DNA of 35,646 nucleotides, from the IMG/VR virus record IMGVR_UViG_3300026483_000720, positions 1 to 35,646 of that record, one strand, 5' to 3'. The stretch's first letter is position 1; each line of letters opens with the position of its first letter. Under the pieces are notes generated by a model. That model was not told the DNA's origin. It saw only the letters and a program-made list of their open reading frames with translations, and searched no databases. Positions 3,104 through 9,161 of the stretch are shown one piece after another. The DNA comes from a virus. The position numbers and the translations under genes were made by a program.

Positions 3104-3574
3104 ATGACAATCTTTAAAGTAATTAATGAAACAGATGGAAAAGTTTATGTAGGTTATTCAGTTAATGATAATCCTAATAATTTAGGAGCAGGTAAATATA
3201 TTAAAAGAGCAGTTAAAGATTTTGGAACAAGATCTTTTCAAAAAACTATTCTTGAAGAATTTGAATCTGAAGAATCATTAAGCCATATAATGGAAAGGCT
3301 AGAATTTTGGATAAAAAATTATAAAGCCGATAATCCTAAATATGGATATAACGAAAGCGTACAAGAATTAATTCCACAAAAAAAGAGACTTACTAAAAAA
3401 CTACAAGTACTCTTAACTCCAGAAGATGAAGACAATTTAAATGCAATTATTATCGAGAAATCAATGGAGAATAAAACAAAACCGCTGCCAGTATCCAGAT
3501 ATGTACGACAATTAATAGTTGAACATATAGTAGAGGAAACCGCACCTGAAAAACAATTAATAAAAACTAAATAA
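3104..3574 (+). CDS. GIY-YIG nuclease-like protein with C-terminal ribbon-helix-helix-like segment
   Basis: A 156-residue protein resembling freestanding phage homing endonucleases (T4 Seg type). Residues 1-85 look like a GIY-YIG fold: IFKV (3-6), GKVYVGYS (12-19), the helix KRAVKDFGTRSF, then an acidic helix with MERLEFWIKNY (63-73) and the closing YGYN (80-83). Residues 96-142 (KKLQVLLTPED, then SRYVRQLIVEHI) resemble a ribbon-helix-helix or NUMOD-like DNA-binding segment. It lies alone between a terminator and the gp26-like gene and interrupts a tail operon, the usual setting of a mobile homing endonuclease. The first GIY position is FKV rather than the consensus, so activity is uncertain. 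A DNA-binding regulator derived from such an enzyme is the alternative. Confidence 0.6.
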   Translation: MTIFKVINETDGKVYVGYSVNDNPNNLGAGKYIKRAVKDFGTRSFQKTILEEFESEESLSHIMERLEFWIKNYKADNPKYGYNESVQELIPQKKRLTKKLQVLLTPEDEDNLNAIIIEKSMENKTKPLPVSRYVRQLIVEHIVEETAPEKQLIKTK

Positions 3575-3576
3575 TT

Positions 3577-4581
3577 ATGAGTAGTCACGAAGACAACATT
3601 AAAAAAGAATTTGAGGCAGCTGAAGGTATAATAGATACTACCGCTGAAGTAAAAACAAATGCCGATGGTAAAATTACCGAGTTAGGCAAGGTAGATACCA
3701 GTAGAGGATCTGGTGTAACATCTATAGACGACCCAGAAATACAAAGAATACAATCATTAACAGGATATGTTAAATTGGATTTAGTAAACTTTCCATCTGG
3801 TGGACAATTTTATAGAGAAGATTTTGAAATTCATATTAGAGCCGCAAGGGTTGGTGAGATTAGAGAATTCTCTACATTAGATGAAGAAAATATTTTAGAT
3901 GTAGATGAAAAGCTAAACTCACTTCTAGTGAACTGTACAAAAATTATGTATGGTAACCAAAGGGGATCGTATAGAGATGTATTAGAAGAGGATAGAATAT
4001 ACTTAATCTTATCTATTAGAGAGTTAACATTTAAAGATGGTGAAAATAAACTGATGATGCCAGTTACAAAAAAGAATTGTAAAACAGGAACCTGTAAATC
4101 ACAAGAGTCAGTAGAGCTTAGAACAGGCAATCTTCAATTTAATGATAAAGATGATTTATTAGAAAAGTATTATGACCATGAAAATAAATGTTTTACTGTT
4201 ACAACTAAAAATCATGGTACATTAACAATAGCACCACCAACAATTGGAGTTATGAGATCTGTTACTGATTGGATACGAAAAAGAGAAGAAGAAAATAAAC
4301 CTTGGGATAAATCATCCTTAGGTATCTTACCTTATATTCAAAGAGAATGGAGAGGATTTAATGATAAAGAAATATTTTCAGCTATTACAAATTTTCAAGG
4401 CTGGGATTCTAGCAAATACTCAATTATTTATAGATTGGTAGAAAAAGCAAAAATAGGTGTAAAGCCGGAATTTTCATTTCCGTGTGAAAGCTGTGGTGAG
4501 GAGGTCGCAGTCCCGCTCACGTTTCCCGGCGGGATCAAAGCTCTCTTTATTATTCAAGATATCTCTTCTGAACTTTTATAA
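3577..4581 (+). CDS. T4 gp26-like baseplate hub / tail assembly protein
   Basis: A 334-residue protein of the T4 baseplate family represented by gp26 (Pfam T4_baseplate type). The diagnostic stretch is LVNFPSGGQFYREDFEIHIRA (about 67-87), followed by a region with EREST-like acidic turns and DRIYLILSIRELTF (about 141-154). A cysteine pair near the C-terminus (FPCESCGEE, about 304-312) looks like half of a zinc ribbon; KNCKTGTC (about 166-173) may supply the other half. The final codons (4498-4545) are strikingly G+C rich. Its last 98 bases overlap an ORF in the +1 frame that has no ATG start, just before the tape measure gene. This is the position where tail assembly chaperones are commonly made by frameshifting. 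The role as hub component versus tape-measure chaperone is not settled from sequence. Confidence 0.6.
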   Translation: MSSHEDNIKKEFEAAEGIIDTTAEVKTNADGKITELGKVDTSRGSGVTSIDDPEIQRIQSLTGYVKLDLVNFPSGGQFYREDFEIHIRAARVGEIREFSTLDEENILDVDEKLNSLLVNCTKIMYGNQRGSYRDVLEEDRIYLILSIRELTFKDGENKLMMPVTKKNCKTGTCKSQESVELRTGNLQFNDKDDLLEKYYDHENKCFTVTTKNHGTLTIAPPTIGVMRSVTDWIRKREEENKPWDKSSLGILPYIQREWRGFNDKEIFSAITNFQGWDSSKYSIIYRLVEKAKIGVKPEFSFPCESCGEEVAVPLTFPGGIKALFIIQDISSELL

Positions 4582-4831
4582 AGTACGAGTACTATTATTA
4601 GAAAAGTTGCATCTCCAGCCTTCAGAGCTGGATTTGCTTCCTTTCTATGAGTATGAATATACTTTAGAAATGTTTAATGAGATTCTTAAGGATCGTAACG
4701 ACGAGGATAAACAGAATACTCAATCCTATTCGGATAAATATAATACGGACAGCATGTCTAAGTCTATGAATAAACAGATGAGTTCATTTAAAGCTCCATC
4801 TATGCCAAAGATTAGTATGCCGAAGTTCTGA
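4484..4831 (+). CDS. Downstream half of overlapping pair; probable frameshift extension or separate gp51-like protein
   Basis: This frame lies +1 relative to the gp26-like gene and stays open to 4831. Convincing protein begins only around 4545-4580, with a helical stretch (YKVRVLLLEKLHLQPSELD, then LLPFYEYEYTLEMF) and a polar Met/Lys/Ser-rich tail. The first part (MKAVVRRSQSRSRFPAGSK) looks like noise. No in-frame ATG precedes the conserved part, the first being the Met of EMFNEIL. Only GTG codons at 4484, 4493 and 4496 or TTG-like starts are available. I infer that this frame is reached by ribosomal frameshifting from the upstream gene, giving a fused product as in tail assembly chaperones upstream of tape measures. 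A separate gene with an unusual start, or an indel in the assembly, are alternatives. Confidence 0.5.
   Translation: MKAVVRRSQSRSRFPAGSKLSLLFKISLLNFYKVRVLLLEKLHLQPSELDLLPFYEYEYTLEMFNEILKDRNDEDKQNTQSYSDKYNTDSMSKSMNKQMSSFKAPSMPKISMPKF
4499..4632 (+). other. Candidate translational recoding element
   Basis: Within the overlap lie, in order: a perfect Shine-Dalgarno-like AGGAGGT (4499-4505), rare in a genome that hardly uses such sites; a G+C-rich stretch (about 4498-4545) where every frame-1 codon departs from the AT-ending usage around it; a stem CCCGC (4512-4516) with GCGGG (4529-4533); a TTTCCCG run (4522-4528) on which tRNA-Phe and tRNA-Pro could re-pair in the +1 frame; the frame-1 stop at 4579-4581; and a second stem TCCAGC (4614-4619) with GCTGGA (4627-4632). 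The shift position is not determined. The CTTTTATAA just before the stop is another possible site. Confidence 0.4.
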
Positions 4832-4847
4832 TAAATAAATAGATTGA

Positions 4848-7800
4848 ATGGCTGCTGTAACTCTTAAAGATTTAATGGACCCTCTATCAAAAATAGAGGC
4901 CGCTGCACAGAGCACTAATGAAAAATTAGATGCTCTTATTGCAGTTTCTACCGGTAGTGACGGTGGCGGTAATTTTACGAAGGAGGTTGTTAATCAGTTA
5001 GAAAAACAAACTGACTTACTTAGAGTAATAGCAAACTCTGGTGGTGATTCATCCAATGCAAATCAAGTAGGTTTATTAATAGATGAAGCATTTACACAAA
5101 CTCAATTACTAACTGCCATTGAAGCAAACACCTCTAGAAATCCTTTAGGTGGAATGTTTAGTAAAAAAGGTGGTAAGGCTAAGAAAAGTAATGCTGGTGC
5201 TACATTAGAAGATTTAGGTCTTGGTGCAAAACTAACAGCCAAAGCCATGATGCTATGGTTATTAGTACCTAAGAAATCTTTAAGTAAATTTAAAGGTTTT
5301 GTAACAGATACACTTGATGCCTTTCAAGGTATAAAACCTAAAAAAGTAAAAGCAGGTGCTGATGCTCTTGCTGTTGCTTCTGGTGCTGCAATGATATCTG
5401 CAAAGGCATTAATGATTTGGGCTTTTGTACCTGAATCAGCTATTGATAAATTTACAGCTTATATAACTAAATTAGATAAAGCTTTATCTAAGACTACTCC
5501 TAAAAAGGCTAAGAAAGGTGCAGAAACTTTGGCCTTAATGGGAGATGCACTTTTAAAATTTGCAAAAGGATTAGCTTTATCTGCAATATTAGTTCCATTA
5601 GGTTTAATAGCAATACCGTTTTTATTATTAGCTGTGACTGCCGTTGGTGGTATTATGGCTCTAATAGGTGGTAAGAAATTTTCTAAAAGAATAGGTAGAG
5701 GAGCAAAGACTTTAGATAAAGTAGGAGATGCATTAAAATCTTTTGCAATAGGAATTGGTTTATTTGCACTTTCTACAATGTTTATAATAATGGCTCCTGC
5801 TATTTTAATAGGTATGGTAGCTTCGCTAGTATTAATACCTGGTGCCATTGCAATATTAGGTGGTAAGAAAACGTCTAAAAGAATTAGAAGAGGTGCATTA
5901 GGCCTAGCTCTTTTGGGTGTAGCATTAATACCTTTTGCTTTAGGTTTAGTACTCTTTTCAATGGCTACAAAAGGAAATGGTATTGGTGATGTTCTTATAC
6001 AAGGTGCTACAATACTAGCAATAGGTGGAGCTGCTGCATTAGTTGGTAAGATGGGTATGAAGAATATTTTAATGGGTGCCTTGGCTATGGCAGTAAACGG
6101 TTTAGGATTAATGGTATTTAGTTTGGGATATGTGCCATTTGCAGACTCTACAAAAGGTATGTCTTTAGGTGATGTTGGTGTTCAGGCATTGGTGCTCGTA
6201 GCTGTAGGTGGAATTATGGCACTGGCAGGATTAGCCGTTGGTGCAACTGCTGGTTTAGCTTTGGCAGGGCCTGCTTTATATGCAGCTGCTGGTTTAGCTT
6301 TACAAGAATTAGCCCCTGGTTTACAGGCAATGAAAAAGGTAGACTTTAAAGAAAAAGAAGCTAAAGATTTATCATATACATTAGGTGCTGTTGCGATGGC
6401 TTTTGCTGGCGTTGATCCAGAAGCAGGATTCTTTGCAAATATTGGTAATGTATTTACTAGAGTTGTACAGAGTGGTGCAGGTGTTGCTGCCGCTGCGATG
6501 TATGGTGCTGCTGGTATGGCATTACAAGAATTATCAGTAGGTCTTACTAAATTTAAAGCAATAGGATTTACTGAAGATGATTCACAAGAACTTGCAATTG
6601 CATTAGGTTCTGTTAGTGGAGCATTTGCTCAGGCAGGTGGAGAACCTGCAAGTCCTGGCGGATTATTTGGTGCAGTATTTGGAAATACATTTAGTCCTAA
6701 TGCTACTGAAAGAGGTATTGATTCTGTGATGGATTCAGGTGAAGCTCTTTCTTCTATAGTTAAAGGCCTTGCTGCATTTTTAGATCTTAAGAAGAAATAT
6801 AAATTAGATGCAAAAGCTTTTCAAGCTGAAGGTTTCTTAAATGTAGCAATTACAGATACTTTAGGTTTCTTAAGTAAATCATTTGCCACAATTGGCGGAA
6901 TGGAAGTTGAGGATGGTTGGGGTCCATTTAGCTGGGATGAGAATTTAGTTGAAAAAGGTATTGATGCCGTAAAAGGTTCAGGTAGAGCTTTAACAGATAT
7001 AACTACAGGGCTAAAATCATTCTTAGATTTACAAATAGAATATGGATTAACTTCCGAATCTTTTAAAGATGGTGGATATTTACAAGTAGCAGTAGAGGAT
7101 ACATTAGGTTTTGTTAGTAAAGCTTTTGCCACAATAGGTGGAATGGAAACTGAAGATTCTTGGGGTCCATTTAGCTGGGATGAAAATGCCGTAGAAAAAG
7201 GTGTGGATGCTGTTAAGGGTGCAGGTAAAGAATTAACAAACATTGCAACAGGCTTATCATCATTCCAAGAACTAGTAGAGAAAAAGATTGACTTCAGTCC
7301 TGGTGGTAAACTTGGAATGGCTGTAAGTAATTCACTATCTTTTGTATCAACCGCATTTAGTGCGATTGGAGGAATGGAAGAGGAAGATGGATGGTTTATA
7401 TTTAGTTGGGATGAGAACACTGTAGAAAAAGGTATAGATGCCGTAAAAGGAGCTGGTAAAGAACTTACTAATATAGCAACAGGGTTAAAGACATTCGCAG
7501 AAATGGGAGACATTGATTTCGGTAAAAAAGGTAAGCTTGCTACGGCAGTTAAAAATTCTCTGTCATTTGTAGGTAGTGCCTTTATGAAAATTGGTGGAAT
7601 GGAAGAGACTGATGGTAATTGGTTATTTTCTTGGGATGAGAACTTGGTTCAAAAAGGTATTGAAAATGTAGATGGTGCTGGTTCTGCACTGACTGATATT
7701 GCTGAAGGTCTTCAGGCGTTTGCAGATTTAGAAAATCCTGCAGGAATAGCAGAAGGTATTGAAACTATATTTACTTCTATAGGTGATACGTTTGCTAAGT

Positions 7801-8261
7801 ATTATAAAGACACTGCATTCCGAACTGACTTAGATCATATGCAAGGTTTTATAACGGAATTATCTACTTATGCACAGGATGGTTCATTAGCAAAAGCTGC
7901 TACTGATATTCAATCAATTTCTAATGCTGTAAATTCTATTGATTCCATGAAAGCGGAATCGTTTGCAAATCTATTTAAAGGAGCAGGGGAATTAAGTTCT
8001 AATAAAAAGGCATATGCCGCACTAGCAGATGCAGTAGAAGAGATAAGAGATATTTTAGGTAACCAAGGTTCAAGTATTGGTGATGCAGTTGGTGGAGCTA
8101 TTAATAACGCATTCAGTGGCGGTGGGGATGAAAAGAAATCAGCAAACAATAATGGTGGAATAAACAGGTCAATGAATAAAATTAATTCTACACTATCTCA
8201 ATTAAATAGTACAATGAAACAATTACCTGTATCCATATCTAATTTGATACCAGAGGATTAG
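4848..8261 (+). CDS. Tail tape measure protein
   Basis: A 1137-residue protein, the longest in the window, placed after the gp26-like pair as tape measures are placed after their chaperones. The N-terminal 110 residues are polar and helical. Residues about 120-500 alternate hydrophobic Gly/Ala/Leu-rich helices, possibly membrane-inserting on injection, with basic GGKKxSKRI(G/R)RGA linkers repeated several times. Residues about 600-970 contain about five tandem repeats of 75-82 residues, each with IGGME, an FSWDEN box (near residues 692, 773, 850 and 925) and a VEKGIDAVKGAGKELTNIATGL-like helix. The C-terminus is Asn/Ser/Gly-rich with a short coiled coil. T4 uses gp29 (590 residues) for this role. 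At roughly 1.5 angstroms per residue, 1137 residues would correspond to a tail near 170 nm. Function is inferred from size, composition and position. Confidence 0.75.
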   Translation: MAAVTLKDLMDPLSKIEAAAQSTNEKLDALIAVSTGSDGGGNFTKEVVNQLEKQTDLLRVIANSGGDSSNANQVGLLIDEAFTQTQLLTAIEANTSRNPLGGMFSKKGGKAKKSNAGATLEDLGLGAKLTAKAMMLWLLVPKKSLSKFKGFVTDTLDAFQGIKPKKVKAGADALAVASGAAMISAKALMIWAFVPESAIDKFTAYITKLDKALSKTTPKKAKKGAETLALMGDALLKFAKGLALSAILVPLGLIAIPFLLLAVTAVGGIMALIGGKKFSKRIGRGAKTLDKVGDALKSFAIGIGLFALSTMFIIMAPAILIGMVASLVLIPGAIAILGGKKTSKRIRRGALGLALLGVALIPFALGLVLFSMATKGNGIGDVLIQGATILAIGGAAALVGKMGMKNILMGALAMAVNGLGLMVFSLGYVPFADSTKGMSLGDVGVQALVLVAVGGIMALAGLAVGATAGLALAGPALYAAAGLALQELAPGLQAMKKVDFKEKEAKDLSYTLGAVAMAFAGVDPEAGFFANIGNVFTRVVQSGAGVAAAAMYGAAGMALQELSVGLTKFKAIGFTEDDSQELAIALGSVSGAFAQAGGEPASPGGLFGAVFGNTFSPNATERGIDSVMDSGEALSSIVKGLAAFLDLKKKYKLDAKAFQAEGFLNVAITDTLGFLSKSFATIGGMEVEDGWGPFSWDENLVEKGIDAVKGSGRALTDITTGLKSFLDLQIEYGLTSESFKDGGYLQVAVEDTLGFVSKAFATIGGMETEDSWGPFSWDENAVEKGVDAVKGAGKELTNIATGLSSFQELVEKKIDFSPGGKLGMAVSNSLSFVSTAFSAIGGMEEEDGWFIFSWDENTVEKGIDAVKGAGKELTNIATGLKTFAEMGDIDFGKKGKLATAVKNSLSFVGSAFMKIGGMEETDGNWLFSWDENLVQKGIENVDGAGSALTDIAEGLQAFADLENPAGIAEGIETIFTSIGDTFAKYYKDTAFRTDLDHMQGFITELSTYAQDGSLAKAATDIQSISNAVNSIDSMKAESFANLFKGAGELSSNKKAYAALADAVEEIRDILGNQGSSIGDAVGGAINNAFSGGGDEKKSANNNGGINRSMNKINSTLSQLNSTMKQLPVSISNLIPED
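6620..7740 (+). repeat. Tandem repeats within tape measure gene
   Basis: About five diverged in-frame copies with a period of 227-245 bases. The clearest shared piece reads ATTGG(C/T)GGAATGGAAG...TTTAG(C/T)TGGGATGA and recurs near 6890, 7132, 7362 and 7590. An earlier, more diverged copy starts near 6620. The conservation is mostly at protein level. Confidence 0.75.
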
Positions 8262-8363: not shown

Positions 8364-9161
8364 ATGGAAAATGTAAAAAACATAGTTTGGTTTGATTTAG
8401 AAACCACAGGAGTAAACACAAGTAGCGATAGAATTATCGAGATCGCAATGATAAAAACCGATTCTGAAGGAAATGAAATAGATTCTTTTCAGTCATTAGT
8501 TAATCCCGGCCCAGATGCAGTTATGAGAGAAGAAGCTCAAGACAAGCATGGCATATCACCAGAACAGTTAAAAGATGCACCACAATTTGATTTAATAGCA
8601 AAAGAAGTTTTAGACTTTATTGATGATAGTGACTTAGGTGGATATAATGCTCTTTACTTTGATGTACCAATGCTCGTAGAGGAATTTATGAGAAGTGGTA
8701 TTGCATTCTCGCATCGCCAAAGAGCTGTAGTAGATCCTTTTTTAATTTATTCAAAATATGAACGTAGAGATTTGAGTACTGCATATAAAAAATATACAGG
8801 AAAAGATTTAGAAGGCGCTCATAGAGCCGATGTTGATATTCGTGCAACAATGGAAATATTTCAAAAGCAAAAAGAACTTTATGATATGCCTACAACAGCA
8901 AAAGAAATTGATGATGTTGTAAATGAATCAAGAAAAGATCAAGTAGACCTTAGCGGTAAATATAAATTTGCTGAAATAAACGGTAAACGAGAAATCGTAT
9001 TTAACTTTGGTAAAAATAAAGGCAAACCGTTTAAAGAAGTTTATGAAACAGATGCAAGGTATATTCAATGGATTATTGATAAGGGTGAATTCTCAAAAGA
9101 GGTAAAAATCATATCTCGTAAACTCTTAGAAAAAATGAGAGCTGAAAATCCTGTTATTTAA
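8364..9161 (+). CDS. DnaQ-like 3'-5' exonuclease (DEDDh) with ExoX-type C-terminal domain
   Basis: A 265-residue DEDDh exonuclease that would remove nucleotides from DNA 3' ends, in proofreading, repair or host DNA turnover. Exo I is WFDLETTG (D11, E13), Exo II is GGYNALYFD (D100), and Exo III is HRADVD (H153, D158) with the five-residue spacing of DnaQ. Residues about 195-260 (FNFGKNKGKPFKEV, then YIQWIIDKGEFS) match the small domain at the C-terminus of many Bacteroidota ExoX/DnaQ-type enzymes. It begins a new transcriptional unit after the tail genes, about 100 bases downstream of the tape measure and behind a promoter-like element. No polymerase is in the window, so proofreading in trans cannot be judged. 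Confidence 0.88.
   Translation: MENVKNIVWFDLETTGVNTSSDRIIEIAMIKTDSEGNEIDSFQSLVNPGPDAVMREEAQDKHGISPEQLKDAPQFDLIAKEVLDFIDDSDLGGYNALYFDVPMLVEEFMRSGIAFSHRQRAVVDPFLIYSKYERRDLSTAYKKYTGKDLEGAHRADVDIRATMEIFQKQKELYDMPTTAKEIDDVVNESRKDQVDLSGKYKFAEINGKREIVFNFGKNKGKPFKEVYETDARYIQWIIDKGEFSKEVKIISRKLLEKMRAENPVI

Follow-up and report, generated by a model that had tools for sequence, protein, structure and literature searches.

The window, by which we mean the whole stretch of 35,646 nucleotides that was analysed (IMG/VR virus record IMGVR_UViG_3300026483_000720), carries a pair of overlapping open reading frames just upstream of a long gene. A first-pass annotation, made from the DNA letters, had described the second of the two as lying in the +1 frame, and the coordinates bear this out: ORF1 (3577-4581) and the +1-frame ORF (4484-4831) share 98 bases. 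The Shine-Dalgarno (SD)-like AGGAGGT, the TTTCCCG run and the stem after the stop, which had been named there as possible signals, were all found at the positions below.

3577..4581, plus strand: ORF1, predicted short chaperone form (gp26-type, 334 aa), zero frame; matches to phrog_36717 and phrog_150, fold match.
4491..4510, plus strand: hairpin of CTGTG (4491-4495) and CGCAG (4506-4510), its loop holding the SD-like sequence; pairs with compensatory changes in each of two clades.
4499..4505, plus strand: SD-like AGGAGGT; GGAGGTC or GGAGATC at a fixed distance in relatives.
4512..4533, plus strand: stem of CCCGC (4512-4516) and GCGGG (4529-4533) around the slip site; window clade only.
4522..4528, plus strand: putative slip site TTT_CCC_G; TTTC in 191/193 and TTTCCC in 179/193 sequences, rare CCC.
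4526..4831, plus strand: predicted +1-frame extension ("T" part); pN/pS after the ORF1 stop, alignment of 22 sequences.
4615..4631, plus strand: post-stop stem of CCAGC (4615-4619) and GCTGG (4627-4631); pair counts and covariation in clade A.
4848..8261, plus strand: long downstream gene, tape-measure-like, 1137 aa; position and length.

The predicted fused product would comprise 316 codons from 3577 and 101 from 4526, i.e., 417 aa. The 1137-aa ORF that follows the two overlapping frames has no strong family match, and its description as tape-measure-like is suggested by its position and length. Two further genes were seen around this group: a likely GIY-YIG homing endonuclease at 3104-3574, between a tail-tube-like gene and ORF1 (phrog_314, E 5.7e-10), and an exonuclease-like gene at 8364-9161, after the tape-measure-like gene (phrog_192, E 4e-50).

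The protein family of ORF1 was investigated using sequence profiles and predicted folds. ORF1 matched phrog_36717 (E 1.4e-25) and, weakly, phrog_150, "baseplate hub" (E 5.6e-4), while the +1 ORF gave weak matches to phrog_8286 (E 0.0011) and to phrog_634, baseplate hub assembly catalyst (E 0.036). The ORF1 of the window had no Pfam match at E<=1. Family PF12322 (T4_baseplate, cut-off 24.5 bits) was matched by ORF1 of PAU with 33.9 bits and by that of LR756502 with 24.6 bits, 0.1 above the cut-off, and at E<=0.01 by 4 of 10 ORF1 proteins; it was not found in the Lak-B5 and pT24 records. Both gp26 and gp51 of T4 match PF12322, the gp51 match ending at residue 201 of 249, and the profiles of the two proteins align with each other (hhalign, E 5.8e-18). 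Since gp26 and gp51 share this family and gp51 carries an extra C terminus, T4 has a short and a long paralogue. Alignment of the fused-family profile with gp26 and gp51 was weak (7.8% and 13%, hhalign). The AlphaFold2 model of ORF1 (pLDDT 79.6) was matched by Foldseek in BFVD (E 1.2e-7 to 3.0e-4, probability 1.00, query TM 0.32-0.46) to proteins named baseplate hub assembly protein, bacteriophage T4-like, and gp51-like; T4's own gp26 and gp51 were not named among the 50 fold matches listed. The model of the +1 part was helical and of lower confidence (69.3), with no fold match in BFVD at E<=0.001; ORF1 had no fold match in the PDB at the same threshold, and the best PDB sequence match of the fused protein P0001 had an E of 0.025. 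By sequence profiles and predicted fold, ORF1 is a remote relative of T4 gp26/gp51. The label "gp26-like" given by the first-pass annotation was thus correct as a statement of remote homology, although the window protein itself lacks a Pfam match. The chaperone function is assigned by this homology.

A tblastn search of phages with ORF1 returned 28 records of 168 to 735 kb, every one below 60% identity: 15 Lak (Prevotella), 6 uncultured phages, 2 pT24 (Tenacibaculum), 2 PAU, 2 MA9V (Chryseobacterium) and 1 MaF61 (Flavobacterium). The recorded hosts of large phages with this gene are mostly Bacteroidota; the host recorded for PAU is Sphingomonas. Among bacterial genome contigs, a pattern search for ORF1 relatives matched 22 stretches, none of which was a relative, so that the host of the window's phage stays inferred. 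IMG/VR was scanned with four ORF1 proteins, yielding loci L013-L194; two of these four scans comprised the best 80 of 112 and the best 80 of 189 relatives, with several contigs included repeatedly. Together with the window and L001-L012, this gave 195 sequences, of which two contigs end before the ORF1 stop, leaving 193; three extra Lak-type loci stand outside both counts. Reduction to unique regions with the site left 90, comprising 31 in clade A (sequences closest to the window's ORF1), 48 in clade B (closest to L003 or L002) and 11 others.

Across these divergent phages, the alignment of relatives proposed in the first-pass annotation revealed the same +1 layout and the same site. An in-frame TTT followed by C lies 57 to 75 nt before the stop in 191 of 193 ORF1s, including those of PAU, pT24, Lak phages and the uncultured huge phages LR756500-LR756502 and LR745206, which supports the TTTCCCG run as a place of possible +1 re-pairing. 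The site reads TTTCCC in 179 of them and otherwise TTTCAA (6), TTTCCT (4), TTTCCA (1) or TTTCGA (1); re-pairing from UUU to UUC is common to all five forms. The three extra Lak-type loci also have TTT followed by C (TTTCAA twice, TTTCTC once). In one of the 191, L011, the TTTC is by our reading placed 18 nt farther upstream than the homologous position. Two sequences fall outside the pattern: L012, with TAC CCC A and no TTTC, and the Chryseobacterium phage L007, in which CTG GAA occupies the homologous position and a TTTC follows 21 nt later, at 36 nt from the stop. L012 may be accounted for by the A-site tRNA, for which re-pairing would likewise be possible in UUU_CCC_N.

Both codons of the site are strongly conserved. 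TTT was kept in 28/28 non-redundant sequences of clade A and 48/49 of clade B, the odd one reading TAC, and no synonymous difference at this codon was counted over the sequence pairs, against 85 expected in clade A (n=28) and 326 in clade B (n=49). CCC was kept in 27/28 and 49/49, respectively. It is the rarest proline codon, amounting elsewhere in ORF1 to 1.1% of Pro codons in clade A (5/463) and 1.7% in clade B (9/545), and to 5 of 307 Pro codons over 27 ORFs of the window. The codons preceding TTT vary, and no common slip was found among them. In seven of the 90 unique regions (L001, L006, L096, L106, L116, L117 and L120), a +1-frame stop lies one to four codons before TTTC; in these, the shift would thus have to occur at or after UUU_C.

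The site was also recovered without any protein query. The DNA pattern GAGGAGGTC-N15-TTTCCC-N3-GG matched at least 120 stretches of IMG/VR, and all of the 80 that were examined overlap or adjoin an ORF1 match, i.e., belong to this gene. The full feature set was present in 78 of these 80, the other two each missing one length threshold (ORF1 in one, the +1 frame in the other).

We then compared substitution patterns in the two frames, choosing sequences in which the distance from site to stop was the commonest one, the downstream part was long enough and identity did not exceed 95%. Downstream of the ORF1 stop, the pN/pS of the +1 frame was 0.146 in clade A (21 sequences) and 0.130 in clade B (38 sequences), and the remaining frames contained 107 and 25 stops in clade A and 122 and 55 in clade B. 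The sequence comparison shows that the +1 frame is under protein selection there. Between the SD-like element and TTT, the pN/pS of the same frame was 1.24 (A) and 1.39 (B), with 1 stop among the 21 and 3 stops among the 38 sequences, respectively. Since the +1 frame looks noncoding before TTTC and protein-like after it, it would be read from about TTTC onward. Within the overlap, pN/pS was 0.56 and 0.69 for the +1 frame and 0.27 and 0.35 for frame 0 (clades A and B); the +1 values are blurred by the two overlapping constraints, and all change is reduced, strongly so in clade B. The windows of ORF1 lowest in synonymous change fall in the overlap in both clades, and clade A has a further low stretch near column 85 (ratio 0.36). 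The statement of the first-pass annotation that dual coding does not explain the odd codons of this region therefore holds upstream of TTTC, as the pN/pS of 1.24 and 1.39 indicates, but not downstream of it, where dual coding does explain them.

That the +1 ORF might instead be a separate gene, started inside ORF1 at a GTG, TTG, ATG or nonstandard codon without any frameshift, appears improbable to us. Candidate starts do recur: a +1-frame GTG at -27 or -30 is present in 30/31 clade A, 45/48 clade B and 3/11 other unique regions, 54/55 clade B sequences have an ATG at +36, the T4 annotation carries an internally started 26', and in each of the five annotated isolates the T part was assigned a start of its own. 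However, these GTGs come from the frame-0 Cys-Gly codons TGT GGT, what the +1 frame encodes from there to TTTC lacks conservation, and 7 of the 90 regions have a +1 stop that separates them from the site. Moreover, no start codon of the T frame is common to all members, and four of the 90 regions (L001, L006, L096 and L106) contain no ATG, GTG or TTG from the upstream +1 stop to the ORF1 stop, the +1 frame of L006 being free of them up to +110. Thus, separate initiation alone does not fit all members, and it would leave unaccounted for the constraint on TTT, on CCC and on the +1 frame before +36; the recurring GTG and the clade B ATG make some additional separate initiation possible. A shift of -2 would lead to the same frame as one of +1, and such shifting is known from the tail genes of phage Mu. 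UUUCCC and UUUCAA, however, offer no base run for -2 re-pairing, whereas moving from UUU to UUC is a perfect re-pairing, and we regard -2 as very improbable. Hardly any weight falls on an assembly error or a decayed gene, which has the frame break itself in its favor and nothing further: the same break is found in isolates and in many contigs (site in 191/193), and the +1 frame is under purifying selection. The assembly indel that the first-pass annotation had envisaged is thus contradicted by the relatives, which share the break. Very probably, then, ORF1 and the +1 ORF form one tail assembly chaperone gene that yields products of two lengths by programmed +1 frameshifting, as judged from sequence comparison.

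In a further step, we investigated the SD-like element and its surroundings. A spacing of exactly 15 nt between GGAGGTC and TTT was counted in 76 of the 90 unique regions, or in 82 if GGAGATC is accepted as well, so that comparison lends support to the element noted in the first-pass annotation; the eight without it at the fixed place are L004, L005, L008, L010, L011, L106, L111 and L115. The distance from GGAGG to UUU is 17 nt. For the GAG and GTC codons of the element, the synonymous differences numbered 0 and 0 in clade A, against 85 and 154 expected (n=28 non-redundant), and 0 and 5 in clade B, against 326 and 368 expected (n=49).

The flanks of the element can pair, giving 6 bp and a 9-nt loop in clade B and 5 bp and a 10-nt loop in clade A. 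Two alignments were examined, for structures that were read off the very sequences used for testing. In A2 (34 clade B regions, PAU and L006), 97.7% of cells were paired, three pairs had changed on both sides, and the covariation score was reached by 0 of 500 shuffles, slid controls pairing at 19-64%. In A3 (19 clade A regions, L001, L096, L098 and L111), 87.0% of cells were paired and the covariation score was reached by 11 of 500 shuffles, with the fourth pair failing in 9 of 23; the numbers of both-side-changed pairs and of pair types in A3 were no higher than in shuffles (471 and 496 of 500). Five of the 11 regions that belong to neither clade (L004, L005, L008, L010 and L011) fitted neither register and are in neither alignment; L005 shows two pairs and no clear hairpin. 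On trees built from the remainder of ORF1, one parsimony reconstruction placed changes of both partners of the middle pair on a single branch in two cases in clade A (4 and 3 changes over 86 branches, about 0.1 expected) and in three cases in clade B (5 and 8 changes over 108 branches, about 0.4 expected); the expected values are our own estimates. Some of the other stem changes ran via G-U, and a few gave mismatches.

Recoding with ORF1 codon usage gave folds as good in a mean of 2.6% of trials for 25 unique L003-type sequences and 5.9% for 19 clade A sequences, and recoding with equal synonymous codons in 6.8% and 15.9%, respectively; for two Lak phages and MaF61 the values were 40% and 53%. 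RNAalifold over the span from -60 to +30 scored 2.7 and 3.9 sd better than column shuffles in the two clades (30 shuffles), and the other three of the four spans per clade were within 1 sd of the shuffles or worse. The hairpin of the window was no more stable than dinucleotide shuffles (z -0.54, 47/200), and the minimum-energy fold of one of two differing stretches of L009 pairs other bases. On this comparative evidence, a hairpin with GGAGG in its loop is likely real in the two main clades, and as a putative frameshift stimulator it is moderately supported.

The first-pass annotation had pointed to the CCCGC/GCGGG stem as a signal. This stem is present at 4512-4516/4529-4533; it is, however, confined to the window's clade, where the outer pair fails in 13 of 35 unique sequences, and it is absent from the clade B consensus fold. 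We thus rejected it as a general signal, and a hairpin showing GGAGG in its loop is the better description of the upstream RNA. The post-stop stem CCAGC/GCTGG is paired in 33 to 35 of 35 clade A sequences per position, with some synonymous covariation; lying about 90 nt after the slip site, it is too far away for direct action on a ribosome at the site. A conserved 3' structure beside the site was rejected as well, since RNAalifold from +4 to +100 fell short of column shuffles in clade A and surpassed them by 0.3 sd in clade B.

According to the mechanism that we propose, most ribosomes would stop at 4579 and produce the short form. In a fraction, a pause would occur while UUU occupies the P site and the rare codon CCC the A site; re-pairing of the Phe tRNA from UUU to UUC (+1) would follow, reading would resume at CCG, and a long form of 417 residues with an extra "T" domain would result. 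The upstream hairpin, with GGAGG in its loop just behind the ribosome, would most likely stimulate the forward slip. What the sequences show is protein selection on the +1 frame, conservation of the site, limits on the shift position in some relatives and covariation in the hairpin; the occurrence and rate of shifting, the movement of the tRNA and the part played by the hairpin are what we infer.

How the upstream element would act can be read in two ways. Somewhat short of an even chance, in our view, is that the GGAGG-loop hairpin is a new kind of +1 stimulator, which would refold at the mRNA exit, bring its loop to an anti-SD that is hidden during initiation and push the ribosome forward. 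About equally tentative is a variant of the programmed-shift reading, compatible with it, in which the shift is real and GGAGG acts through pairing to the ribosomal anti-SD, the hairpin being incidental. The fixed-distance GGAGGTC or GGAGATC in 82 of 90 regions would suit this variant, as would the lack of GGAGGT at the place in the Chryseobacterium phage L007 (one lineage). As far as the accessible text of PMC8710568 goes, AGGAGGU is found at the +1 site of F. johnsoniae prfB, and Weeksellaceae, which have another anti-SD, lack the prfB shift. However, the 17 nt from GGAGG to UUU are far from the prfB spacing, and the covariation of the stem pairs speaks against an incidental hairpin. In Chryseobacterium phage MA9V-2 (L007:2190-2304), both GGAGGT and a homologous TTTC are missing; its host group is described in the same accessible text as having a different anti-SD (PMC8710568). 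No relatives of L007 were found in IMG/VR, and a large fold around its later TTTC was no better than shuffles (z -0.04).

Chaperones of two lengths have been published before, T4-like phages included, and what is new here is the UUU_C site for a +1 shift together with its hairpin. A -1 shift is used by lambda gpG/gpGT and further frameshifted chaperones, whereas the predicted shift here is +1 at UUU_C; the extension lies in the +1 frame, which does not fit a -1 heptamer site of the type X_XXY_YYZ. The present gene further differs from lambda gpG/gpGT in its T4 gp26/gp51-type protein, its rare A-site codon and its SD-bearing upstream hairpin. The available part of PMC5009743 describes two products of the tail chaperone gene as a feature conserved widely among long-tailed phages, T4 being the exception, and the chaperone frameshift of the haloarchaeal myovirus HSTV-2 as very likely +1. 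HSTV-2 has an archaeal host, and its likeness to our case is the probable +1 chaperone shift of that published description. T4 (Straboviridae) belongs to the same family by remote homology and fold, gp26 corresponding to the short form and gp51 carrying the extra C terminus; it has two separate paralogous genes, whereas here there is one shifted gene. Genes of gp51 type and gp26 type lie in tandem in Pseudotevenvirus PF-CE2 and Klebsiella phage RCIP0002.

In cyanophage Syn9 (Kyanoviridae; L336:979-1892), a gp26-type CDS is overlapped by a gp51-type T part in another frame, as here, but the frame is -1 and a -1 heptamer is present. In 81 of 81 loci (Syn9 and L337-L416, the best 80 of 597 IMG/VR relatives), TTTTTTC precedes the gp26 stop by exactly 10 nt, and Syn9-type gp26 genes are candidates for -1 frameshifting. 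Vladimirov, Gautam and Davidson are said to have proposed, in 2022, that T4-like chaperones rely on some mechanism that is not frameshifting. The accessible part of PMC12846349 cites Vladimirov et al. 2022 in connection with poly-T signals in T4-like chaperone genes; the Syn9-type -1 signal may thus already be covered there.

In Flavobacterium prfB (RF2), a P-site slip occurs with an SD-like AGGAGGU upstream, according to the accessible text of PMC8710568. The prfB slip is on CUU with a stop codon (UGA) in the A site and a close SD, whereas here the codon is UUU, the A site holds a sense codon and the distance is 17 nt; CUU before UGA with an SD a few nucleotides upstream does not occur at our site. 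Influenza A PA-X is made by a +1 slip on UUU_C, the same slip as predicted here, on a eukaryotic ribosome and with no SD element. In the literature covered, mostly without subscription papers and preprints, we found no report in which gp26/gp51-type genes of Bacteroidota phages are described as undergoing a +1 shift.

The T4-type chaperone family would thus reach two lengths via a likely +1 shift here and probably via a -1 shift in Syn9-type phages; if the hairpin does act as a new stimulator, T4-type chaperones would have come to one end by gene duplication, by a -1 slip and by a +1 slip. SD use in initiation is described as suppressed in Bacteroidota in the available text of PMC8710568, and the site offers a compact natural test of SD-like action on elongating ribosomes in this phylum. 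Annotation is affected as well, the T part being currently entered as a separate small gene in annotated isolates: in all five it stands as a gene of its own, named "hypothetical protein" in four and "gp94" in PAU. The Lak-type loci L004, L005, L198 and L199 keep TTTC and the +1 T part, and in L004, L198 and L199 a TAG lies inside the T part, consistent with an alternative code.
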